A stretch of DNA of 26,875 bases from a virus. Location of the stretch: IMG/VR virus record IMGVR_UViG_3300019927_000164, positions 1 through 26,875 of that record; one strand, given 5' to 3'. Of the stretch, positions 787 through 26,875 are shown piece by piece (position 1 is the first letter of the stretch; every line of letters starts with the position of its first letter). The notes beneath the pieces were generated by a model. It was not told the DNA's origin. It did not search any database and saw only the letters and a program-made list of their open reading frames with translations. Position numbers and translations under genes: made by a program.

Positions 787-1844
787 TCATCACCTATTGC
801 TGTATTTTGTATATATGTTGAATATTCATACTTTGTGTCTTTTATATCTATTATTTGATTATTAATACCATCCCAAACTTCAATATGTTCTGCGTCATCA
901 TCATATTGGTTAGTATTAGTAGCAGCAGTGATTATTTCTGTTCCAGTATCGTCAAAAGTAGATTGATCAGCAACTTGAGTAGGGAAACTAAATCCTCCTT
1001 GATTATTTCCATTAAAATCAAAAACATCAATTTTTGAATTATATCCATCAAACCATATTAAACCAACTTTATTATTATCATATAGTTGTAGATCGTATAT
1101 AGAATGAATATTGTCACTACTTATATCATTTATTAATGTACCAGTAGTATTGTTAGTTGAACTATCTAATTTGAATAAATCCAACCCGTGACTATCTACA
1201 GCATAGAAAATATACTGTCCATCATCAGAAACGGTAATACCATTAACACTTGAATCATTAATAGTGTAGTCTGCATTTTTTGATCCAGTTGATTTATCAT
1301 ACTCAAATATAGCACCAAAATCGTCAGATGAGTACATAGCGTACACTGAACTACTACCAATATACATTTCTTCTAAGTAATCATATCCAGTTTGTGAACT
1401 TGCTTCCCATATAAGATTCCCGTTAGTATCTAAAAGCCCTGGCTTTTGATAGGCTGTCTCTGTGAGTATATGATTACCGTCAACAGCAAGACCGTTATCT
1501 GCATCAGTTAGTTTTGTAGAATTACCTAATTCATCAACTTTCCAGACTGCATTAAATCTATCAAGAACAAAAATTTCACCAGAACTATTAACAGCAATAC
1601 GATGCATTGTCGATGAAATATTGCTAAGATCAGTTGACGATACCATATCTCCCACTAAATGATTTGGAGAAATAGTAACACTTTCATTAGATGGAGATAC
1701 TTTTCCATCAACATTGATAGTATCACCATCAGATTTTGACTGTGAGTAACTTATTGTATCACCATTTCCGTTAATAGTAATCGACTCACTCGTCGGCTGG
1801 TAGTTCCCGTTGACGGTAATGCTAAAGTTCAGTACCAGAAATAT
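621..1844 (-). CDS. Tail fibre, middle segment: beta-propeller-like repeats, out of frame with both flanks
   Basis: The frame is open from about 1844 (just after an in-frame TAG) to 621, but no ATG starts it. The first start-like codon is a GTG at 1655, in the middle of plausible coding sequence (FSITVNGNYQPTSESITING lies upstream, about 1826-1767). It therefore probably continues the fibre gene at 1822-2439 after a +1 shift. From about 1610 to 775 there are roughly seven blade-like units ending in hydrophobic and turn patterns, such as IAVNSSGEIFVLDRF, ITVSDDGQYIFYAVD, LQLYDNNKVGLIWFDG and AIGDDYYYVLIG. This reads as a seven-blade beta-propeller, a known receptor-binding fold in viral fibres. 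After about 770 the same frame gives low-complexity, Ser/Thr/Arg-rich nonsense to 621, while another frame becomes sensible. The true coding part is therefore about 1844-770. Confidence 0.65.
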   Translation of the reverse strand: MFLVLNFSITVNGNYQPTSESITINGNGDTISYSQSKSDGDTINVDGKVSPSNESVTISPNHLVGDMVSSTDLSNISSTMHRIAVNSSGEIFVLDRFNAVWKVDELGNSTKLTDADNGLAVDGNHILTETAYQKPGLLDTNGNLIWEASSQTGYDYLEEMYIGSSSVYAMYSSDDFGAIFEYDKSTGSKNADYTINDSSVNGITVSDDGQYIFYAVDSHGLDLFKLDSSTNNTTGTLINDISSDNIHSIYDLQLYDNNKVGLIWFDGYNSKIDVFDFNGNNQGGFSFPTQVADQSTFDDTGTEIITAATNTNQYDDDAEHIEVWDGINNQIIDIKDTKYEYSTYIQNTAIGDDYYYVLIGRSETSSRMWISHSTASQKASRDRSSTTNNPHWASAFLTSSTATTPWT

Positions 1845-2439
1845 CTACTGAAAGTGATGTTTCATTATTTATTGCACTAATAGCTTCGGAATCAGCATAT
1901 CGAGTATGATGAGCTGAAGCTGGAGCATCACTAAGATCACCGTGACTAACAGATGTTGATCCACCAATAGAAACGTTATTTCCAGCTACAGTAACCGTTG
2001 TATTACTTAAATTAGAATATGGAATTTCTTTATTTGTATTATCCCAAATAGTCACACCATCATTATCAGTTATATTACCAACACCATCAATATTATATCC
2101 ATTAAAAGATAATGACCCTGTTAGCGTATCACCATCTTTAAATAAAAGATCTCTCCATGTAGAATTAGTTGAATCCCACAATTTAAGCCGCTCTGCATCT
2201 TGATCATGGTAAAGGTGTGACGTTTCAGGAGAAGCTGGTTCACCTCCAGAAAGCCCTTTTGCACTTTCAATTCGGCTATTAGTAGTATTAATTAGACTTT
2301 TAATATCTTCAATAACATTATAATTAAACCAGTTATCAAAGACATCAACAGGCGGTACATCATCTGCAAATTTATAATTGCTAGGCGGCTTCGATCCAGT
2401 CGATCCCCACGTTTCAAGATTCGTTGAGTAAGATACCAT
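1822..2439 (-). CDS. Tail fibre, N-terminal segment
   Basis: This segment encodes 205 residues starting MVSYSTNLETWGSTG. The N-terminus (NLETWGSTGS, then VDVFDNWFNYNVIEDIKSLI) and the later HGDLSDAPASAHHTRYADSE resemble the attachment end and shaft motifs of haloarchaeal virus tail fibres. It would attach to the baseplate: the gene lies 2 bases downstream of the tail protein I gene, the usual place for a fibre. The middle contains beta-rich shaft sequence (DGDTLTGSLSFNGYNIDG). The frame ends at TAG (1822-1824) after SVDISGTEL, but the +1 frame carries on as NFSITVNGNYQPTSES, so the protein almost certainly continues. The stop context reads CTT-TAG-C, the same arrangement as the prfB +1 slippage site with TAG in place of TGA. 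A simple indel or an assembly error would give the same picture. Confidence 0.8.
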   Translation of the reverse strand: MVSYSTNLETWGSTGSKPPSNYKFADDVPPVDVFDNWFNYNVIEDIKSLINTTNSRIESAKGLSGGEPASPETSHLYHDQDAERLKLWDSTNSTWRDLLFKDGDTLTGSLSFNGYNIDGVGNITDNDGVTIWDNTNKEIPYSNLSNTTVTVAGNNVSIGGSTSVSHGDLSDAPASAHHTRYADSEAISAINNETSLSVDISGTEL

Positions 2440-2441
2440 AT

Positions 2442-3074
2442 TTATTCATCACCTTCATAATAATCGCTGTACGTACCACCAGACGTAACATTTCCATCTG
2501 CGTCAAGTGTACCATATCCGGCGGTAGTATCGTAATTGCTATTCTCGTATTCAGTTTTGCTAATGTAGTCAAGAGTCCCCGATTCAATGACATTGATGCC
2601 GTATGTTGTTGACGTAGAATTTAATAGTAGATCTACTACTTCATCAGTAGATCCAAATTCAGCATCAATAGATTCGCTTGGAACAATTATATTGAAATTT
2701 GGAGATCCATCTATATTTTCTAATTTAATATTTTCTTTTTCTACATTTAGTAGTGAAGATGCTGCTTGTAGAATTTCTTCAGGAGATCCGTGTGTTGTAA
2801 GTGAATTAAATGAACTTAGTACACGACTCCGAAACTTTTCTACAGTTTCATTTTCATCTATTGTTAATGAAAGTGGGTATGCAATTTCTTCAAGATCATC
2901 ACCAGTTGGAGCGTCTTGGAGGCGGAGTCCATTTTCAACACGTTCAATTTCTGCATCAAGCTCTGAAACGGCGGTCGCAGCTACATCAAGAATATCACCC
3001 ATTTCATTTTCTCTTGGCAACCACGGTGCAAGATCTTCTTCAAGATCATAAAGGTGTTGTTCTTTATTTTTCAT
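2442..3074 (-). CDS. Tail protein I-like baseplate protein
   Basis: The product has 210 residues and its ATG overlaps the stop of the baseplate J gene (ATGA), which argues for translational coupling. The N-terminal half is helical (LYDLEEDLAPWLP, then DILDVAATAVSELDAEIERV), followed by a region with RSRVLSSFNSLTTHGSPEEI. This matches the general pattern of P2 gpI-type proteins, in which a helical N-terminus is followed by a small alpha/beta domain that helps assemble the baseplate edge and joins it to the fibre. The C-terminus (about residue 165 on) is acidic, Gly/Tyr/Thr-rich and probably disordered. A position between gene J and the fibre gene is exactly where gpI sits in P2-like tails. The family call rests mainly on order and general pattern. 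Confidence 0.7.
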   Translation of the reverse strand: MKNKEQHLYDLEEDLAPWLPRENEMGDILDVAATAVSELDAEIERVENGLRLQDAPTGDDLEEIAYPLSLTIDENETVEKFRSRVLSSFNSLTTHGSPEEILQAASSLLNVEKENIKLENIDGSPNFNIIVPSESIDAEFGSTDEVVDLLLNSTSTTYGINVIESGTLDYISKTEYENSNYDTTAGYGTLDADGNVTSGGTYSDYYEGDE

Positions 3075-4297
3075 TGTAGCGTTGTGTTGATTGAGATATT
3101 AGAATGATCAATTACAGCTCGCTCGCTAAACCCTATTGAAATATTAGATGTTGAAGATGGAGTAGAAGATGTTCCTATTTGAAGCGAATTAATGTCATAT
3201 ACACCTTCAATTTCACGAATTGCAAATTCAATTTCCCCATATAGTACATCATCACTAACAGTCAAATTGCCATAAACAAGCTGACCAGTAGTTTTTGTAC
3301 CACCAATGTAATTTACAATTGAGTTTTTAACTTTCTCTATATTAACATCTTTTGTAGTTGTTGCATCAATATCAATATAAATATCAGTTTTAGTTGGAAC
3401 TGAATACTCAATTGTAAATGTTTGCCCATTTGGTAATCCAGCAGTTCCTGTAGTTGAATTACCATGTACACCGCTTACCATATTTGCACCCATAGCCATA
3501 CCATCAAAGATAATTTGTGCAATTTCATCAGTATGACCGGGTTCTGCATCAACAACTATTTCAACTTCATGTGCATTAAGACCGTCATTCGCTACATCAG
3601 CTGAATTATCTATTGGACGAACTTGCTGGACAACATCAAGAGCGTTTAGATCTTCGTAAATTTTTCGTAGCGAGCTGACTTGAATAGTTCCAACTGAATT
3701 TTGAATACGATTTCTATAATTATCATCTTCCTCTCTATCTCTTCCACCGCTAGTTCGATTATAATTTTCTATTGAATCAATACCAGAAATAGAAGTTTTA
3801 GATTGAGTAATTGAACCAGCAGCTACATTTCCATGACTACCAGCAACACGCGCCTCAATGCCACTTGTTACAGAAGTTTCACCTGATTTCAAAGAAACAG
3901 CTTCAATTGTTTGAAATTCAATTGGATCAGAGCTAGATGTTTGAACGATAGTACCTTTTGGGATTGAATAATCCTTAGAAACAGCACTATCACTTTCAAA
4001 TGTGACAAGACCATCACTACGACTTTTTTCTTTTCTCCCAACACCAAGCTCTTCACCTTTATAATCTAGTGCTTGTCCTTCAGCATCTTTAAGTCTAAGT
4101 GATTCTTGAACTTTTGCAAGTCGCTCTTCAAGTTCAGCTAACCGACCAGCAAACGGTTCGTAGATGTGATGAATGGAGCTACCATACCGTTCAGTAATAT
4201 CATCACCCCAATACTCTGTGCCATTATCAAGAACTTTATACAACCATTGCTCTTTAGTTAAAGGTTCAACTTCTGCTGTTTCTTCATTATATGTCAT
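3071..4297 (-). CDS. Baseplate wedge protein J
   Basis: The product has 408 residues. After a helical N-terminus (YEPFAGRLAELEERLAKV) it carries the hallmark baseplate J order: GLVTFESDSAVSKDYSIPKG (about residues 95-114), then FQTIEAVSLKSGETSV, GSHGNVAAGSI and GIDSIENYNRTSGG followed by DREEDDNYRNRIQ (about 187-200). In this family the protein forms the wedge that links hub to rim and triggers contraction. The gene overlaps its neighbours on both sides by ATGA-type junctions (gp25-like upstream, protein I downstream). One copy of the CATTGAGG word lies at 3853-3860, inside SGIEAR. Length is normal for the family. The call is firm from pattern and position. Confidence 0.93.
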   Translation of the reverse strand: MTYNEETAEVEPLTKEQWLYKVLDNGTEYWGDDITERYGSSIHHIYEPFAGRLAELEERLAKVQESLRLKDAEGQALDYKGEELGVGRKEKSRSDGLVTFESDSAVSKDYSIPKGTIVQTSSSDPIEFQTIEAVSLKSGETSVTSGIEARVAGSHGNVAAGSITQSKTSISGIDSIENYNRTSGGRDREEDDNYRNRIQNSVGTIQVSSLRKIYEDLNALDVVQQVRPIDNSADVANDGLNAHEVEIVVDAEPGHTDEIAQIIFDGMAMGANMVSGVHGNSTTGTAGLPNGQTFTIEYSVPTKTDIYIDIDATTTKDVNIEKVKNSIVNYIGGTKTTGQLVYGNLTVSDDVLYGEIEFAIREIEGVYDINSLQIGTSSTPSSTSNISIGFSERAVIDHSNISINTTLQ

Positions 4298-13038: not shown

Positions 13039-16000
13039 TTAGTAATCTTTGTTAGCGAACTTCTTAATATTTGATTTAATATTCTTCAACAAGCCTTTTG
13101 TTACTTTTTTGTCGTATGACTCCATTTCTTTAATTATGTTTGTTCCAGATACAGTAAAATTATCAGCATTAGAGTCATAGAGGCGCTGTGCTTGGCTTGT
13201 AGCTGCTAATAATACATTTTCGCGGAAATCTTTTTCGTTTACTATATCATTTAGACCAAGGGCTTTTGCACTTTTCCATAGTTCTCCAAGCGTTCTATCC
13301 AAAGCATCGTCGTACTGTGTCTTGGAACCCGGACTAGGCGAGTCCATGTCACCAGCACCATGATCGAGATCAATAAATTGGATTTCGGCATCTTCAGTAA
13401 CATAGACATTGTGAGAGTGAGCGTCCCAATTTCCTCCAATAACTTGCGAAGCTGCTTTTTCAATAAATTGATTTACATATATTTGATCATTAATATCATC
13501 GGGAATATTTTCAGCAGCCATATACCCATCAGAAACTTTTTTTGCAACCCAATTTACTTCATCATCTGCTTTGTGTGATGGAACAGATTCAGGAGAAAGA
13601 GCTTCTGATATTTTATATGTAAGTATTTCTCTGACACCAGTAGCAGTACCATGGCCTGTGGGAGAGTAATCAGTTTGAATTGCTAATCCTTTATATGAAT
13701 CATTTGTTGGATCATAGTGTGGAAGTTCAACCACCTCCATGTCGCTTGCACTTTTACCTGAAGCAAATCCATAATTACCGAGAGATCCTGTGCTTGAAAT
13801 GGCTGATTGGTCAAAATCTTCTAAGAAATCAAATTCATCCGGATCTTGACCCTTTAGAATTTCATCTATAACCTCTTGTGGTTGAGGATCTACTTCATCA
13901 GAAGGTTTACTAGGTGCATAATCAGGTGATATTTTTTCTTCCGTGATAGTTGGGTCGTTTTGAATATGATCCCAAAATTGTCTTACTCTATATGCACCTT
14001 CAGTTGATGTGATTGATTGATCATATTCATAGACATTTTTAAGATTATCACGTAGTGTTGTTAATTGTCCATGGTTATGTTGGCTAAAATCACCAGCTAC
14101 AAAATTATCGTCTATAATAGCACTATAGCTGTAATTTCCAATAGACAAACCTGCTGTATTAACAGTTAAATTTTCTCCATCAACCCACACTTCTTCTTCA
14201 CCACGATGTTTATGGCTATCAAGAGTGTCAACTGCTGCAATTATGTTTTCTTTTTTAATTCGTCCGGTGTGATTTATTCCTTTTGCCCATGACTTTTTAC
14301 TTGTGAATGAATAATTGTGTATTCTATTTCCATCCCAAGTGTGGCTATCATCTTCTGGATTTTCAAATATTTTTGGTGTAATTGCGCTAATTTGTCGTTG
14401 TTGAAATCCTCGATAAAGTTTAACACCTTTATCATTTACATCTATGTCACCTTCTTCATCCATTATCTCTATCAGCCGATCACTTAGCTCTATCATTGTT
14501 TCGGCTGCTTCAACTTTTTCAGGACTTACATCAACATGACCTCCCCTCGTTTCTTTTTCAAAGTTTTTTACTTCAGCAATTGCAGAAGCAATTTTTCGTA
14601 CTTCTTCTTTTCGAGGAGAACTATTAGATTTCCAATTTTCAATATAATCTTCTAAATCTGTATATGCTTTTCGTGATACATCTGTTTTATCTGCTAATAT
14701 ATTTCTAATTCCTTTTCTAGTGGCGCTGTCAAGCTGTCTTTTTTCTCGGGGTCTACTTCCAACTCCAATATCTAAATCAAGATTAAGCTCTTGATCTATT
14801 TTTTCAACAGCAACTTGAGCAGAACTTCTTTCTTCTCCGTTTTCAGCAGCAATTATTTTTATTGGAAATGCTTTATTTTCCGGATTTCTTTTTTCAGCTG
14901 TATAAAACCCAGAGCCTTCAGCAGATTTAAATTCTTTATAACCACGATCTCTTTTTTCAACAACTACAAACTGATCTTCTCGATAAGACCACGCCCAATA
15001 TTGCTTATCTTCAATAATTGAATCACTATTAATATGATCCCAATCAAATTTTTCAAAACCTGTTGGTGTGGTTATTGTATCAGTAAGTGGGGGGTTACTA
15101 AACTTATTTCTAAAGTCGGTTTCAAGTGATCGTTCTATAACTCGTTTGTCTGAGACTCTGTATTTTCTATCTTTTTCTTTGGAGTAAACAGTAATTTCTC
15201 CAAAGTTGTATTTATTACCACGAACATCTTGATCAGGAATGTAGCGACCAGTTATCTCTTCATCACCAAATTCAAATGTAATTAGATCACCAGCATTAGC
15301 ATTAGCAGCATCCCAAGCACCGCTGTACTCTTTTCGAGTACCAACGAAGCTATTAATATCAAGTGTGAATCTTTTTGTTTTTGCTCCAGAAGTTACGAAC
15401 GTTCTTTTAGTAGGTATAGCTTGATCTTCACCACTTACTCGAACTTTACCTCGTACAAGTGTGCTACCCCGATGATTATCAAGCCATTTGTCATTATCTA
15501 ATGCATCTTCAACATCAGCAATTATTTCATCATCAGTTTCAAGATTATAAAATGTTTCAACTTTTGAATGAATAGCTGCTATATCAAATTCTTGTTCAGC
15601 AAATTCGTCGTAATCAAATTTATATTCTAACAGCTCTCCATCTTCAGTAAAACCAGCTTTAACCTTAAATTTTCCACCAGTTCCACCAGTATACTTAAGA
15701 TCTGCTAAATACTTGTTTTCATCAACTTCTATAACTACATTACTTTTATCAGTATTAACTCGATCAAGGCTGCTGAATTTTTTTTCCGTTAATTCTGATG
15801 GTTTTACATATCCTCTTTCATTTGGATCAACTTTTTCTGCAAGATCTACTTCAGAAGCCCATTGATTAGGATATTCTTTTCTAGTACCAGCAAAATCACC
15901 ACCGTAACCACTCACATAGACTTTTTTCTGATTGAAGCCAGATTCAAATACATTCTCAGTATTATATTGAATATCGCCATCCTGATCAATTACTTTATTT

Positions 16001-17343
16001 TTTACTCTAAGATAAAGTTCTTCAGGATCAGAATTATAGCCTCCATCTTCAACGTAAATAAATTCATCTCCTTCAGAAAGTTCTCTAAAGTGAGTTTCTT
16101 CTTGACGTGCATAAATTTGATATTTGTTTTCATCAAAATTAACACGCGCTTCAAGATCACCTGAATGTTGAATTGTTACTACATTTGAATCTTCAAATAC
16201 TTCTGAAATTTCACCATCAAATGTATTTGACCCATTATCAAATTTAACGTCTAATCCCTCAACTACATCATCGGTGTCATTGAGGCGGGCTTTTTTAAAC
16301 CCATCTTCAACATCATATTCAGAGAGATCTTTGTAATTTGGAATACGCTCTGAGTAATCCGGGTCAATGTCGCTCTGTTTCCAAATTTTATTTGGATTAT
16401 AGACTGTTGTTGTTTTTTCAAGTCCAAACTTGTAATCGTAATTATTTACAAGTTCATAATCAAAGTCTCTAACTCCTACTGCTAAAATTTCAGCTGTTAA
16501 TCCATCACCGTTTTGAACTTCTTCAGGATATACAATTGCATATGCTAAATCCCCTCGCTGAAGCTCAAATTCAACTATATCTCCATCTTTTGCAGCACCA
16601 TCATAAGAATCCCACAATTTTCCTTCATCAAAATGTTCTAAGAGATTTTGATAAGTTTCTCTATGTGGAATAAGATCATTTAAGTCATTAGCATCAAATC
16701 TATCGTTATTGTAATTTTCTCCAAGTTCTTTGTAAGTAACGAACTTTTTATTGTTAGTTTTAGTATTTCTGATGGTATATCCACCAGTTTCTTCATTAAA
16801 AATTCGATAGAGATTATCGTCTTCTGAGTCGTTGCTTTCAATTACATCATATTCAGAATGTCTCTTAGCTTGAGTTTCGGCGCTGCTTTCTTCTAACTCA
16901 AAATCATCACCAGAATCATCTCTAGACTTTGGAATTGTACCATTATCGAGATCGGTGTCAATATCCCATCCACCCATTCGCTCCTTGACGAATTTGATCA
17001 TTTCGTCAAGCGGTGGCATCTTATTATCGTAGCTAAACGGCGTATCAGGCCGCTGTCGCTCGACACCAGACACACCTTTATCTATATACGCAGCGTGTTT
17101 GCGTGGATTTGTAACGTGCCCTTGGAGTGTATCTCCAAGATCAAATTGGTGTGTATCAAACGAATTGTGTAAGTGCGGTGTCGTATAAGGCCGTCTACTG
17201 GTTAGTAGCACAGCCCGAGCAGTATCCTCACCTGCATCCAGAGTGTCATTGAGGCCCTCTTCCGCCCCATCTTTGACCTTTTCCCACAGTTTCGCTAGCG
17301 TTGCATCAACGCTCTCTTCATCGAGGTCAAAATCAATATTCAT
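13039..17343 (-). CDS. Giant neck protein: HK97 gp10-like N-terminus fused to ADP-ribosyltransferase and kinase-like domains
   Basis: The product has 1434 residues; ordinary gp10-like neck proteins are about 110-150. Residues 1-125 show the gp10-like pattern (DTARAVLLTSRRPYTTPHLH, then HAAYIDKGVSG and MIKFVKERMGGW). Residues about 150-890 are beta-rich, acidic modules with a repeated GTRKEY motif near residues 485 and 667. A helical segment (about 895-970) leads to an ADP-ribosyltransferase core with the R-S-E signature: LYRGF with R978, YSFTSKKSW at S1012-S1015, and GEEEVWV with the E-x-E at E1049 and E1051. Residues about 1190-1434 look like a PI3/4-kinase or HipA-like fold: K1218, E1239, GGNWDAHSHNVYV with D1307 and N1312, and IDLDHG with D1325 and D1327. 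The virion would carry it in the neck or capsid and the enzyme parts would act in the host after entry. ART is well supported; kinase less so; delivery is inference. Confidence 0.8.
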   Translation of the reverse strand: MNIDFDLDEESVDATLAKLWEKVKDGAEEGLNDTLDAGEDTARAVLLTSRRPYTTPHLHNSFDTHQFDLGDTLQGHVTNPRKHAAYIDKGVSGVERQRPDTPFSYDNKMPPLDEMIKFVKERMGGWDIDTDLDNGTIPKSRDDSGDDFELEESSAETQAKRHSEYDVIESNDSEDDNLYRIFNEETGGYTIRNTKTNNKKFVTYKELGENYNNDRFDANDLNDLIPHRETYQNLLEHFDEGKLWDSYDGAAKDGDIVEFELQRGDLAYAIVYPEEVQNGDGLTAEILAVGVRDFDYELVNNYDYKFGLEKTTTVYNPNKIWKQSDIDPDYSERIPNYKDLSEYDVEDGFKKARLNDTDDVVEGLDVKFDNGSNTFDGEISEVFEDSNVVTIQHSGDLEARVNFDENKYQIYARQEETHFRELSEGDEFIYVEDGGYNSDPEELYLRVKNKVIDQDGDIQYNTENVFESGFNQKKVYVSGYGGDFAGTRKEYPNQWASEVDLAEKVDPNERGYVKPSELTEKKFSSLDRVNTDKSNVVIEVDENKYLADLKYTGGTGGKFKVKAGFTEDGELLEYKFDYDEFAEQEFDIAAIHSKVETFYNLETDDEIIADVEDALDNDKWLDNHRGSTLVRGKVRVSGEDQAIPTKRTFVTSGAKTKRFTLDINSFVGTRKEYSGAWDAANANAGDLITFEFGDEEITGRYIPDQDVRGNKYNFGEITVYSKEKDRKYRVSDKRVIERSLETDFRNKFSNPPLTDTITTPTGFEKFDWDHINSDSIIEDKQYWAWSYREDQFVVVEKRDRGYKEFKSAEGSGFYTAEKRNPENKAFPIKIIAAENGEERSSAQVAVEKIDQELNLDLDIGVGSRPREKRQLDSATRKGIRNILADKTDVSRKAYTDLEDYIENWKSNSSPRKEEVRKIASAIAEVKNFEKETRGGHVDVSPEKVEAAETMIELSDRLIEIMDEEGDIDVNDKGVKLYRGFQQRQISAITPKIFENPEDDSHTWDGNRIHNYSFTSKKSWAKGINHTGRIKKENIIAAVDTLDSHKHRGEEEVWVDGENLTVNTAGLSIGNYSYSAIIDDNFVAGDFSQHNHGQLTTLRDNLKNVYEYDQSITSTEGAYRVRQFWDHIQNDPTITEEKISPDYAPSKPSDEVDPQPQEVIDEILKGQDPDEFDFLEDFDQSAISSTGSLGNYGFASGKSASDMEVVELPHYDPTNDSYKGLAIQTDYSPTGHGTATGVREILTYKISEALSPESVPSHKADDEVNWVAKKVSDGYMAAENIPDDINDQIYVNQFIEKAASQVIGGNWDAHSHNVYVTEDAEIQFIDLDHGAGDMDSPSPGSKTQYDDALDRTLGELWKSAKALGLNDIVNEKDFRENVLLAATSQAQRLYDSNADNFTVSGTNIIKEMESYDKKVTKGLLKNIKSNIKKFANKDY

Positions 17344-20220: not shown

Positions 20221-22041
20221 TTAGCGGCAGTCTATTACAACCGCCGCCTCCGAGGACGTGTCCGAATAATCAACACCTAGCCCACCATTTTCATAGCCAG
20301 CCGGGAACGGTGTCGTAGAAAACTCCTGAATACGAGCATCAGTTAGTACTATTTCACCACTTTCATTTTCTTTGTAGTCATAACTATCACCAAATCCAAG
20401 CGACCCGTCCGGAATCGTCGGTGGCTCAAACGTTAGTCGCTTAATCACTTCGTCATGGATGTCAGAGCCAACATTGTAGGCCCTCGCCATGACCATGAGC
20501 TTTTCTTTGGTGTCGTCATACCACACATCTTTCACGAAGCCAACCTGTGACAGCGTGCTTCGGTCGTGATCCATCATGAACGGCGGGCTGTCAGAATAGT
20601 CTTTGTTAGCTACATTTTTCAAGAAATCTTTGGTAATCCGGACACCGTTTCTGTTTTCAGGCTCGCCCGGCTCCATGGCTTCATATACAGCGTCAACAGA
20701 TACCAACTTACCATCCTCGGTATTCTGACGGACACCGTATTCGTTAAAGCCAGATAGATCAGGTCGATCAGGGCGAATAGCCGATGCAGCAAATGTAATT
20801 GCTGAATCTTGAAGGTTAAGATCTTGGCTATTTTCTTGCGTACCTTGCGGATCACCATCAGGCATCCCATCGAACGGATTATACGCCCAGTTGAGCAACG
20901 AAATGGCCCACTCACTTGGGCAAGTGCCTGTATTGCCGCTCTTGGGATTCTCAGGTTTATTTTCCGAACTACTCATTCGACTAATGAATGAGACAGTTCG
21001 TTTACCGTCGTCAATGTCTTTCTGTGTCCACTCAGACTTATCTTTTTCAAGCAGCCGCATATTCCGATCTCGAACGGCTTGCGGATCTTTCGACCCTTCA
21101 TCACTACACGGATGCTCGCCCCACCGTTCGAGCTGTGAAGCAGTCATATTGACTGCATCAGACCATTCAGAATATGTTTCGTCTAGTTCTTCTTGATCAA
21201 CCTCGAACAGCAATTCTCGCTGCTGATCGAGCGCCATTTCCATTTCTTCATCCGGAATGGGTGGATCATCAAACGCTTTTGCTAACTCTCTCACACGGCT
21301 ATCATGCTCTTCTGCGGAAACAGGAGCGCCTTGTCCACCAAGATCCCACGCCGACGAGACATTACCACTCCGAAGATTGCCATCACCATCAACGACAGGA
21401 TATGAAGAATCACTTTTCGTATCTTCAGCATACATATAGTGATCTTCATAGCTATCGTTCGGAATTTCACTTTCAGTTAGCTTACCACCTTTCGTGCTGT
21501 CCCACGTAACTCCAGCAGCACTCTCGAAATTAAGTGCCGTTGTTTTTTTCGTAAATTCCGGATTCCCACCGGGCATCTGATCGAATGGATTCACACCTCG
21601 ATTAAGCAGATTGATTGCCCATCGAGACGGGCATGAACCGGGACCACCTTCCATCGGGTTATCCGGTTCTTCCCCATCCATCGCTTCTGAAATGTGGGTC
21701 AGATGTTTATTCGCAATCCAATAGCTATTGCTGTCCCATCCATCAGGCCATTGACCGAGCAACATGAGCGTTTCATCGCGGGTATTTTCACCACCATCAA
21801 CGCCTGCATCAGCGCATGGGTGTTCATCCCACATTTCCATCCGCTCATTGTTCATGTTGACCATCTGGCCCCACATTTCAGCAATGCGCTCTTTTTCCAT
21901 CTCTGTCATGAATGTCATTGAGGCGTCGTCGCCCTCAATGTCACTCACACCATCAAATTCAGATTTAACTGGACCTTGTTCAAAGTCACTATCACCACCG
22001 TCATTTTTAAATTCTACTGTTTTAACATTCAGTTCAATCAT
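20221..22041 (-). CDS. Prohead protease with tandem Cys-containing N-terminal domains
   Basis: The product has 606 residues, about three times a plain prohead protease. The protease domain lies at about residues 400-595: SAIRPDRPDLSGFNEYGVRQ, then PPFMMDHDRSTLSQVGFVKD with H492, and DGSLGFGDSYD with S547, followed by LTDARIQEFSTTPFPAGYE. These agree with the His and Ser of the herpes-assemblin-like fold that trims scaffold and capsid. The N-terminal part carries two copies of a domain (about 55-170 and 290-405) with HPC (C76, C312) and CPS-x-WAI (C137, C374), then NPFD-x-MP. The Cys spacing is 61 and 62 residues and the copies are about 237 apart. The domain's role is unknown; it could be metal or disulphide-stabilised or a recruitment part. 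Word copies at 21916-21923 and 21933-21940 form an inverted pair. Confidence 0.82.
   Translation of the reverse strand: MIELNVKTVEFKNDGGDSDFEQGPVKSEFDGVSDIEGDDASMTFMTEMEKERIAEMWGQMVNMNNERMEMWDEHPCADAGVDGGENTRDETLMLLGQWPDGWDSNSYWIANKHLTHISEAMDGEEPDNPMEGGPGSCPSRWAINLLNRGVNPFDQMPGGNPEFTKKTTALNFESAAGVTWDSTKGGKLTESEIPNDSYEDHYMYAEDTKSDSSYPVVDGDGNLRSGNVSSAWDLGGQGAPVSAEEHDSRVRELAKAFDDPPIPDEEMEMALDQQRELLFEVDQEELDETYSEWSDAVNMTASQLERWGEHPCSDEGSKDPQAVRDRNMRLLEKDKSEWTQKDIDDGKRTVSFISRMSSSENKPENPKSGNTGTCPSEWAISLLNWAYNPFDGMPDGDPQGTQENSQDLNLQDSAITFAASAIRPDRPDLSGFNEYGVRQNTEDGKLVSVDAVYEAMEPGEPENRNGVRITKDFLKNVANKDYSDSPPFMMDHDRSTLSQVGFVKDVWYDDTKEKLMVMARAYNVGSDIHDEVIKRLTFEPPTIPDGSLGFGDSYDYKENESGEIVLTDARIQEFSTTPFPAGYENGGLGVDYSDTSSEAAVVIDCR
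21914..21944. repeat. Inverted pair of the dispersed word
   Basis: Two copies face each other with cores at 21916-21923 (plus) and 21933-21940 (minus), 9 bases between the cores. Together they make a near-palindrome: the left arm reads TGTCATTGAGGCG and the reverse complement of the right arm reads TGACATTGAGGGCG. It lies in the 5' part of the prohead protease gene. The two arms are read in different frames on the coding strand (ASMT and DIEGD), so the symmetry is not caused by a peptide repeat. Confidence 0.8.
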
Positions 22042-23804: not shown

Positions 23805-25469
23805 TCAGCGATCATGGCGTCGATTATATCGTCTCGATCTCCTATTCACCGTATTTGAACTTCCAGATACCGCAATTTTCACTTTAGAATTATCCTTATC
23901 TCTTGAACGGCGCTCAACAGCTAAATTACCAGATTTAAAGTCTTTACCGCCCTCAATGCCGTTAAAATTGTCTTCATCAGCCTGTTTAACTGTCTTTTCG
24001 CCGGTATTGAGATTTGGTGGATAGCTCGCAAGTGCTAATGCAATTGCAAGATCGTCTCGTCCTTCCGGTGCGTGGTCTTTTCCACTAAATCGAGGTGTTG
24101 AACCCTTGTTTTTCTTGTCTTTAATTATCGCTAAAATTTGTTTTCGAAGTTTTTCATCGTCAACAAGAGTAATTTGACCATTGTGGAAGCCATAGTTCAT
24201 GTCTTCCATCATTTCTTCAACACCATCTCGGTCGCTGAAGTTAAATGAGTTTATTCCACGGCCAATTGTTTCTCTAATCTCCGAATCAAAGCCTTCACCC
24301 ATGTTTGTCGCATCGGTAATAATCTGATCAACATTATTAGCTTTGTATAGTTGATGGATCCTCGATGCTACAGCGGATGGGTTGCGAGAATTAGCAGGTT
24401 TAATTCCTGCTGTATCAAGTTTAGAGTCATTGATTACTTCATGATAACGTAATCGGCGCTTTGACTCGTCGTGTTCAACAATACAAACAGCTGTCTCGTC
24501 GCTTCCACCACCAGCAAAATCAACAGCCATTATAATTCGTCCATCAACTTGAGAACCGACTGTTGGCCCATAACTGTATTCAGCTCGCGAGCCTTTGTTC
24601 ACAGCTGCGTTAACTGTATCTTCATCAAAGAACCGATACTGATTTTCAACCGGCTCACAAAGGTACTCTTGGCGGAATCCATCAGGATCTCGCGCTCTAT
24701 CACGCTCTGCTTTTTTGATATTGAGATACGGCATAACCGGCTCAACATCTTGTTCAAGAAGCGATTGTTTGGGGTCAATCTGTTCAGGATTTTCAAATGC
24801 TGGCTGATCAATGGCAATAATACCATTTTCACCATCAGGAGAACCAGCTTTCTGGTCCTGCATGAAAATCCCACTTTCAAGCTTGGGTGTTGAAACTTCT
24901 ATTGTTTCTGCATCACCAAGTGCGACAAACGGTGAAAACGCGCGCATGGACTCTTCTTGATCTTCCAAAAAGTCCATTTCATCAATATAAAGTATATCTG
25001 CACTATCAGCACCACGAGATGTATCAGGATTCCCTGAAAATGCCATCACAGTCGCGCCATTGGCAAACTCAATTTCATCTCGGTTATCAACAGGTGGATT
25101 AAAGTCAACTTTAGCCCACTCCATTAGATCATAGATGTCTTCAATCCGATCTTTAGCCTGTGACTTACTTGGTCCGGTGATAGCAAAAAAGCCGTGTGGG
25201 GTCGTCATTGCTGCAAGTAAAATAGTTGCACACGCAATGAATGAATATCCAGTTCGACGCCCCTTCAGCACGTTTACTGTAGATGCATCACCATACCAAA
25301 CAGCATGAACAAATTGGCGTTGATATGAAGTTAAATCAAGTTCTGAGATATTTTTTGTTTCAAGATCTCGAACTTTAAAAACATCTTCAATGACTTTATC
25401 AGGGCGACCATCCCATCGCTCAAGTAGAGCATCTGTGTCGTCATTGAGGCGCTCTGCTACTTCTTTCAT
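23805..25469 (-). CDS. terL: Terminase large subunit
   Basis: The product has 554 residues and powers and cuts DNA packaging. The ATPase domain shows a degenerate Walker A with K69, GRRTGYSF (residues 70-77), and Walker B DILYIDEMDF with D163 and E164. The nuclease domain shows its three acidic sites: MAVDFAGG with D317, ITDATN with D386, and GRDDLAIALAL with D472 and D473. The C-terminal tail (RRSRDKDNSKVKIAVSGSSN, then RRSRRYNRRHDR) is basic, unlike the rest of the acidic proteome, and could touch DNA or the portal. The start ATG at 25469 has word copy CATTGAGG at 25442-25449, 20 bases into the gene (RLNDD), and another at 23951-23958 near its 3' end. No small terminase subunit is recognisable next to it. 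Confidence 0.93.
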   Translation of the reverse strand: MKEVAERLNDDTDALLERWDGRPDKVIEDVFKVRDLETKNISELDLTSYQRQFVHAVWYGDASTVNVLKGRRTGYSFIACATILLAAMTTPHGFFAITGPSKSQAKDRIEDIYDLMEWAKVDFNPPVDNRDEIEFANGATVMAFSGNPDTSRGADSADILYIDEMDFLEDQEESMRAFSPFVALGDAETIEVSTPKLESGIFMQDQKAGSPDGENGIIAIDQPAFENPEQIDPKQSLLEQDVEPVMPYLNIKKAERDRARDPDGFRQEYLCEPVENQYRFFDEDTVNAAVNKGSRAEYSYGPTVGSQVDGRIIMAVDFAGGGSDETAVCIVEHDESKRRLRYHEVINDSKLDTAGIKPANSRNPSAVASRIHQLYKANNVDQIITDATNMGEGFDSEIRETIGRGINSFNFSDRDGVEEMMEDMNYGFHNGQITLVDDEKLRKQILAIIKDKKNKGSTPRFSGKDHAPEGRDDLAIALALASYPPNLNTGEKTVKQADEDNFNGIEGGKDFKSGNLAVERRSRDKDNSKVKIAVSGSSNTVNRRSRRYNRRHDR

Positions 25470-25478
25470 TATTAAAAA

Positions 25479-25649
25479 TTAAATGTGTTCGCGTGTATTT
25501 GTACCACTATTATTTTTAATAGTGGTTTCAATAATCTTCATCGGATCGTTTGGGTAGTCGTCTGGACGGTCATAATCGGTTTTGCTACAACTGTCAAAGT
25601 TTAGTTCAAACAAACCGTGTGCGTTTGTGAAATTGCTTTTGTCGGTCAT
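25479..25649 (-). CDS. Small ORF of 56 residues before terminase
   Basis: An ATG at 25649 opens 56 residues starting MTDKSNFTNAHGLFELNFDS and containing SKTDYDRPDDYPNDPMKI, ending in THIS-less NTREHI at the TAA 25479-25481. The composition is acidic and hydrophilic like the other genes, and it fills the space between the BppU-like gene and terL with short gaps. I know no family. At this place a small terminase would be expected, but 56 residues is too short for the usual one, so it is at most a remnant or a different factor. Its 3' part contains a perfect 10-base hairpin (25503-25526). Confidence 0.55.
   Translation of the reverse strand: MTDKSNFTNAHGLFELNFDSCSKTDYDRPDDYPNDPMKIIETTIKNNSGTNTREHI
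25503..25526. other. Perfect 10-bp inverted repeat with TTTT loop upstream of terL
   Basis: The arms ACCACTATTA (25503-25512) and TAATAGTGGT (25517-25526) are perfectly complementary around a four-base loop TTTT. It lies 34 bases upstream of the terL ATG, inside the 3' end of the 56-residue ORF. It could be an RNA hairpin that controls terL expression, an operator for a dimeric protein, or part of a packaging site. Only the symmetry is seen; the role is inference. Confidence 0.6.
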
Positions 25650-25661
25650 TTTAGTTCTTTT

Positions 25662-26030
25662 TTATGTATTAGAGTAAATTGTCCATTCACCTGTTGTTAC
25701 TGTCGCTACATCACCAACTGAATCGGTAATTTTAATTTTATAATAATAATCACCACCATCAATTTTACCGATTCCATCTGTGTCAGAACTATCGATTTTA
25801 ATAGCTATTTCACCATTTTCAACATCTGTTATGTTGATACCATCAGAAAGTGTTTTCTCAATAATAGGAGAATCACCAGCATACCGCGCAAGTACAAAAT
25901 TAATAGAAACGTTGCTAAGATCCGTATCGTCACTATCTGTTAACGTAATTGTTGCATTAATAACAGCGGTATCGCCCGCTATATATTTATCATCAGTCTG
26001 TGTTGGAAGATCTTGATTACTTTTAGTCAT
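25662..26030 (-). CDS. BppU-type baseplate/fibre beta-sandwich protein
   Basis: The product has 122 residues. The pattern is a run of strands with turns: KYIAGDTAVINATITLTDSD, DLSNVSINFVLARYAGDSP, IEKTLSDGINITDVENGEIA, IKIDSSDTDGIGKI, then GDYYYKIKITDSVGDVATVT and GEWTIYSN. The sequence of DGxxLxLxxxxVxF, then GxxxIxLxxxDT, GxYxYxI and GxxTI fits the N-terminal beta-sandwich of BppU (DUF2479-type) proteins used in baseplate and fibre attachment. The start overlaps the stop of the 20-residue-repeat gene by 4 bases (ATGA), so both are likely parts of one accessory structure. It sits upstream of terL, away from the main tail cluster. Confidence 0.7.
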   Translation of the reverse strand: MTKSNQDLPTQTDDKYIAGDTAVINATITLTDSDDTDLSNVSINFVLARYAGDSPIIEKTLSDGINITDVENGEIAIKIDSSDTDGIGKIDGGDYYYKIKITDSVGDVATVTTGEWTIYSNT

Positions 26031-26875
26031 TCAGTTGTATCCATTGTAATATTGTACGTTGTTTCAAAGTCACCCTCAACGTTGTTATTAATGCTAAATC
26101 GTCCAAGTACATTATAAATATGAAGTGCAGAAAATGTATTGGGTGAAATAGTAGATAAAGAAACAACAAAAGTATCACTATCTACTATTGATGTTTTAAG
26201 TAACTGCTGACGATCTGTTATTGTTGTTACGCTATCGTTATTATTAACAGAAAACGTTGGTTTCTGTATTCGTGTTGTAGAAGTTGTTATAGTATCAGTA
26301 TCTTTGTGTACTGCACCCAAAACACGGATCCGTTTTGGTTTTGTATTAATAGTCGCTACTTCATCGACTATTACTCCAGGTTGTTGTAAACGAGATGTTG
26401 TTGTCGTTACTGCATCAATGTCTCTTGATATAGAGTCAACATTTTGTATCCTAAATGGCGTAACAGTAATAATACCAGTATCTGTTAACGTTGTAGACAA
26501 AATATTTTCGTTATACGGACTGAATAACACCGACGTAGTTTGTATGTCGGTGTCGTTTACATTAAGTGTGAGCCGTTGTGAGCGGCTGAATGAGGTAGTT
26601 GTCGTATCCGTGTCTATCGCTGTCACCACAACTAACTGTGTTCGTGTAAGATCCGTTGTTGCAGTATCGAGGTCAGTACTTACTGTAGAAATGGACTGAA
26701 CACGGCTGGGAGTGACAGTAATAGTACCAAAATCAGTACTCACCGTAGAAACGGACTGAACACGTTGCGAGGTAGAAATTACTGAATCAATATCAGACGA
26801 AACAGTAGACAGTTTGTTAGATGATGGTGTATCATCACTTTCGTCACCGATGCCGAATCCCCCAATGCCAACCTC
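26027..26875 (-). CDS. Fibre-like protein made of 20-residue repeats (partial, runs off right edge)
   Basis: The frame is open from the right edge to the stop at 26027-26029, so the 5' end lies outside the window. A GTG at 26743 is not needed as start because coding sequence continues upstream (EVGIGGFGIGDESDDTPSSN). From about 26812 to about 26153 the translation is eleven tandem units of 20 residues (two are 21 and 23), for example STVSTDFGTITVTPSRVQSI and GAVHKDTDTITTSTTRIQKP. The consensus is roughly V-x-x-D-x-D-x-x-T-T-x-x-S-R-x-Q. Alternating hydrophobic and Thr positions suggest a beta-solenoid or stacked-strand shaft. The end (ALHIYNVLGRFSINNNVEGD) is a non-repeat cap. It is likely a structural or fibre-associated protein coupled to the BppU-like gene. 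Confidence 0.75.
   Translation of the reverse strand, partial: EVGIGGFGIGDESDDTPSSNKLSTVSSDIDSVISTSQRVQSVSTVSTDFGTITVTPSRVQSISTVSTDLDTATTDLTRTQLVVVTAIDTDTTTTSFSRSQRLTLNVNDTDIQTTSVLFSPYNENILSTTLTDTGIITVTPFRIQNVDSISRDIDAVTTTTSRLQQPGVIVDEVATINTKPKRIRVLGAVHKDTDTITTSTTRIQKPTFSVNNNDSVTTITDRQQLLKTSIVDSDTFVVSLSTISPNTFSALHIYNVLGRFSINNNVEGDFETTYNITMDTTE
26153..26812 (-). repeat. Eleven degenerate 60-bp tandem repeats in fibre-like gene
   Basis: The coding repeats correspond to a 60-base period at DNA level. Copies at the right end (RVQSVSTVSTD, RVQSISTVSTD) are nearly identical in sequence, while the leftward ones are diverged. That indicates stepwise duplication with recent copies at the 5' side. Such arrays gain and lose units easily, so length may vary among related viruses. 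Confidence 0.75.

Follow-up and report, generated by a model that had tools for sequence, protein, structure and literature searches.

A 20-residue repeat array encoded before a BppU-like adaptor gene, a candidate accessory fibre stalk of a contractile-tailed virus

The window analysed here, which takes in the complete 26,875-base record of a haloarchaeal tailed virus, ends in a gene for a protein with a regular repeat of about 20 residues, and this gene overlaps the gene of a BppU-like adaptor directly downstream. On balance, we believe that the repeat protein forms a stalk, rich in beta structure and held by the adaptor, for an accessory fibre of the virion. Among haloarchaeal viruses, few such fibres are understood. 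Should the module prove real, a phrog_1084 profile combined with a test for periodicity would find candidate host-contact fibres where sequence search sees nothing, appendages of archaeal and bacterial viruses would be linked, and there would be a new repeat fold to solve.

The repeat array and its adaptor

The region next to the gene of the terminase large subunit (TerL) contains the following features:

23805..25469 (-): TerL, by profile matches
25479..25649 (-): small ORF of 56 aa between adaptor and TerL, role unassigned
25662..26030 (-): BppU-like adaptor gene, 122 aa, by phrog_1084 match and fold match of the model
26027..26875 (-): putative repeat-stalk gene; ORF open at the window end, 282 residues seen, 5' end cut by the contig end
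26027..26134 (-): non-repeat C-terminal tail FSALHIYNVLGRFSINNNVEGDF..., a proposed adaptor-docking segment from comparison by eye with other partner genes
26135..26200 (-): repeat unit 11, 22 aa, degenerate
26201..26260 (-): repeat unit 10
26261..26320 (-): repeat unit 9
26321..26380 (-): repeat unit 8, degenerate
26381..26440 (-): repeat unit 7
26441..26503 (-): repeat unit 6, 21 aa
26510..26572 (-): repeat unit 5, 21 aa, degenerate
26573..26632 (-): repeat unit 4
26633..26692 (-): repeat unit 3
26693..26752 (-): repeat unit 2
26753..26812 (-): repeat unit 1
26813..26875 (-): Gly/Phe-rich segment EVGIGGFGIGDESDDTPSSNK preceding the array in the translation, possibly near the N-terminus

The contig end truncates the array gene on its 5' side, so that its start is missing and eleven units is the count for the visible part alone. 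These units occupy residues 22-247 of the array protein (26135-26812); eight are exactly 20 aa long, two have 21 aa and one has 22 aa, with a two-residue insert between units 5 and 6. Comparison with 2000 shuffles indicates that the period is not due to chance: the BLOSUM autocorrelation of the protein reaches z=10.0 at lag 20 and z=7.5 at lag 40, scores attained by none of the shuffles, and z=3.3 at lag 60 (2/2000). The period of about 20 residues proposed in an earlier, sequence-only reading is thus borne out, and the consensus given there is, in the form D-x-D-T-x-T-T-x-x-x-R-x-Q, a fair summary of the units.

The same reading held the copies nearest the 5' side to be almost identical and the array to be growing, and neither claim survives. 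Units 1 and 2, like units 2 and 3, have just 10/20 residues in common, and 36/60 and 34/60 bases, respectively. Since only about half of the residues are common to neighbouring units, Tandem Repeats Finder reports no DNA tandem repeat over the array, and the codon positions of the units show no excess of retained silent sites, the array is old and diverged rather than freshly growing. Growth by recent duplication is ruled out by the divergence of adjacent units (57-60% of bases in common) and the empty Tandem Repeats Finder result.

That the repeat is not a named one was confirmed in Pfam, PHROGs and NCBIfam, where the array matches nothing described and profile matches are limited to unrelated families at E 0.015 or worse; as far as can be judged from its sequence, the repeat is a member of no described family. 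Searches with tblastn of phages and plasmids, viral contigs and genome contigs yielded no relative of the array, although low-complexity masking may hide some, and an HMM of unit pairs found no credible relative in 391 haloarchaeal genomes. The single profile match to the array, L068, coincides with other reading frames and seems to be spurious, and a phmmer match to the baseplate component gp38 (8eon_D, E 0.28) was treated as chance. No homologues were observed that would reduce the array to a small portion of some known family serving another function.

The adaptor gene begins within the last four bases of the array gene (ATGA, 26027-26030), and the gene order proposed earlier, a coupled BppU-like gene with the terminase downstream, is present. 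Residues 9-119 of the 122 adaptor residues match phrog_1084 (E 8.7e-14), and in HCTV-16 a homologue bears the annotation 'phage BppU N-terminal domain'. Pfam BppU_N (PF10651) does not match the window adaptor, and the best relative, in locus L073, attains 16.6 bits versus a curated cut-off of 23.1. The AlphaFold model of the adaptor, built from a five-sequence alignment (mean pLDDT 65), has among its top matches in solved structures the 80alpha baseplate fibre (Z 9.3), the NF5 baseplate (Z 8.9), chain J in the neck model of Sf14 (which need not be gp30/gp31; Z 8.5), the TP901-1 device and the N-terminal domain of ORF48/BppU (Z 8.4) and the Bas63 connector (Z 8.3). Matches to beta-sandwiches of the BppU/FibU type thus span Z 8.4-9.3 with 101-112 residues aligned, for a model of pLDDT just 65, and unrelated Ig-type domains are intermixed at Z ~8-9; the phage adaptors rank high, by a small margin only. 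HFTV1 is missing from the best fold matches, an absence that argues against nothing. Matches of the model in BFVD include HCTV-1, SP-15 and several 'minor tail' or 'BppU' proteins. Family match, annotation and the 80alpha and TP901-1 folds together support the earlier naming of the neighbour as BppU-like. A partial literature search found no paper describing BppU in archaeal viruses.

Recurrence of the array and adaptor pair

Loci in other genomes were found via the adaptor, searching 391 Halobacteria genomes with phrog_1084 or an adaptor profile (4 and 13 loci, respectively). Of 13 haloarchaeal proviruses, most have a repeat-rich protein with a period of ~20-24 residues before the adaptor, as do the virus isolate HCTV-16 (gp43-gp44) and one uncultured phage. 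The partner genes differ widely in size as well as in sequence. In L073, L075, L099 and L100, a phrog_644-type or similar gene of 145-152 aa and usually a 110-aa gene are followed by the array protein, the adaptor and TerL/TerS; here the array protein has 712-882 aa and combines a globular N-terminal half, a LamG domain in L075, with a period-23 array. In L074 an array of period 24 precedes the adaptor, and in L106 a 1542-aa array protein is followed by the adaptor and then by TerL. The anatomy closest to the window is that of L101, whose 210-aa partner gene has an FG-rich start similar to the EVGIGGFGIGDESDDTPSSNK segment, a period of 22 and an ATGA overlap with the adaptor. In L076 and L102-L105, propeller-type or long Ser/Thr-rich proteins are encoded one gene further upstream. 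A gene for a phrog_240 'head protein' or a phrog_17792 gene often adjoins the pair. Regularity is highest in L111 (1272-4991), where a 1239-aa protein with a Gly-rich N-terminal part contains a 20-residue array of z 13.7 and is encoded directly before a BppU-like gene and then genes resembling head-tail connector genes. L107 is an exception, with two tandem adaptor-like domains in one protein and no array partner seen. The adaptor of L110 had no match among phage isolates.

For an enrichment control, all distinct ORFs of 190 aa or more in the adaptor loci (129) were scored for z>4 at a period of 17-27 residues, with the adaptor partner defined as the gene immediately before the adaptor or the next one upstream of it. 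This score was reached by 12/17 adaptor partners versus 6/112 other ORFs of the same loci (Fisher p ~3e-9, a value that overstates the evidence because several of the loci are relatives of one another and partners were chosen once the first arrays had been seen). In hmmsearch, the window units scored no better than shuffles against other arrays, and column permutation against the L111 array gave p=0.08. As no other array has significant similarity to the window units, homology of the arrays is not shown, and it is the arrangement that recurs.

Comparable proteins occur in named viruses. The 340-aa gp235 of Bacillus phage SP-15, which has no assigned function, consists of 20-21-residue Ser-rich repeats (period z 5.3) followed by a phrog_1084 BppU-like domain, but forms one polypeptide, has repeats that are not demonstrably related to those of the window, and is encoded in a neighbourhood of unknown genes, not ahead of TerL. 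L085 has a similar fusion whose repeats are suggestive only (z 2.3). The Haloarcula virus pair gp43-gp44 of HCTV-16 and HCTV-1 likewise consists of a Ser/Thr/Ala-rich array with a weak period of 20 and an adjacent BppU-like protein; however, the array protein is about twice as long, lacks the D-x-D...R-x-Q consensus and is not encoded beside the terminase. In view of this recurring coupling, with a clear fusion in SP-15, the earlier suggestion that an array coupled to a baseplate-type gene points to an extra fibre or whisker is a fair one.

We favour a fibre in which each 20-residue unit would probably form two short beta strands, and eleven or more units an elongated, beta-rich and Ser/Thr-rich rod. 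The C-terminal tail of the array protein would dock on the co-translated 122-aa beta-sandwich; contact between array protein and adaptor is likely in view of the SP-15 fusion. The adaptor would hold the rod on the virion, at neck/head or baseplate. The free N-terminal end would face outward and contact the host, and in relatives this end bears sugar-binding (LamG) or propeller domains. With considerable reserve, we suggest that arrays of period 20-24 before phrog_1084 adaptors might constitute a class of beta-rich fibre stalk, not described so far and common to archaeal and bacterial tailed viruses, encoded stalk-first and with a swappable N-terminal head (LamG, propeller or none), which would serve as a general accessory adhesion device.

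Placement of the fibre and other readings

A whisker at the neck or head, in which stalk and adaptor would sit on the neck/portal or capsid, in the manner of the Sf14 gp30/gp31 whiskers or the bead-chain neck fibre of phage A-1(L), and modulate loose adsorption or the retraction of tail fibres, is a serious possibility, which we rate a little short of even. Most haloarchaeal loci have the pair beside terminase or head genes. It adjoins TerS/TerL in the window and in L073, L075, L100 and L106, whereas in L076 and L103 it has the portal or protease gene on one side and capsid genes on the other; in several loci the small protein associated with the pair is the phrog_240 'head protein'. The whisker genes of Sf14 (gp30/gp31) likewise belong to the head block and follow the portal gene (PMC11821841), and the neck-model chain matching the beta-sandwich is among the top fold matches. 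However, gene order is weak evidence of location, the adaptor adjoins lysis genes in L085 and LIS04 and a hub/fibre-like gene in HSTV-1, and its top fold match is a baseplate fibre. No repeat array is described for the Sf14 whiskers, and the matching chain need not be a whisker protein. The bead-chain neck fibre gp82/81/80 of A-1(L) was rejected as the family of the window pair, with which its proteins have no PHROG in common (30025, 4368, 12121, 25864 and 21562).

Somewhat doubtful, by comparison, is an accessory fibre of the baseplate, with a BppU/FibU-like adaptor ring from which the stalk would radiate to S-layer or glycans. The best solved matches, the 80alpha baseplate fibre and TP901-1 BppU, agree with this placement, as does the name 'BppU' given to the HCTV-16 homologue. 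80alpha FibU combines a BppU-like domain with a thin collagen-like fibre and is dispensable (PMC7048315), and by analogy of adaptor fold and of a fibre shaft held by the adaptor it is the closest working analogue, with the opposite order along the chain. In FibU and TP901-1 BppU the adaptor is N-terminal and the shaft, collagen-like or a coiled coil, follows C-terminally in one chain, whereas here the array gene comes first, and the array is also first in the fusions. Furthermore, the baseplate J gene of the window (3071-4297) lies a long way from the pair. Owing to the location in the head block and the Sf14 neck match, we lean slightly toward neck or head, although the top fold match favours the baseplate.

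Either placement presumes a folded stalk. It is unlikely that the protein is instead a Ser/Thr-rich, low-complexity surface decoration or linker without a defined fold, kept for bulk or glycosylation. Ser and Thr do make up 35% of its residues, AlphaFold yields no confident structure for the array alone (pLDDT 35), and the partner genes differ in length and sequence, but the near-exact 20-residue spacing and the R and Q positions, kept in most of the eleven units despite low identity, argue for a folded unit. Judging from the composition, which is rich in T, S, V, I and D, a long alpha-helical coiled-coil whisker of the T4 fibritin type is also unlikely. A spurious or degraded reading frame, for which the lack of a sequence-level homologue might speak, is highly improbable given 282 open codons, a periodic protein with low DNA repeat identity, the ATGA overlap with a conserved gene and the same arrangement in other genomes.

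The site beside the terminase gene

The window belongs to a contractile-tailed virus, because it contains genes for sheath, tube, tape measure and baseplate J in addition to TerL, portal and capsid. Its TerL is 44-45% identical to those of Hafunaviridae, e.g., HF1/HF2 and VOLN27B, and 68% identical to those of the contigs L006, L007 and L009. In L006 and L009, the TerL relatives that reach far enough upstream, TerS directly precedes TerL and there is no array at this site, whereas in the window (25479-26875) no TerS-like gene lies between the fibre-like pair and TerL. Hafunaviridae isolates have a few small genes between TerS and TerL. Another TerL relative, L002, contains two pairs of a small and a larger virion-like gene (106+216 aa and 108+174 aa; 1681-3867) between TerS and TerL, for which no significant family match was obtained. 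Since L002 thus also has extra genes here, the place of TerS, which the fibre-like pair takes in the window, is probably a variable cargo site.

Two further proteins of the window stand apart from the fibre-like pair. A 1434-aa ORF (13039-17343, minus strand) has no significant Pfam or PHROG match, and at its place VOLN27B encodes a 1038-aa hypothetical protein between head connector and tail tube. A 606-aa protein (20221-22041, minus strand) has a DUF3140 match (residues 292-364) before a part resembling a head maturation protease (403-591).
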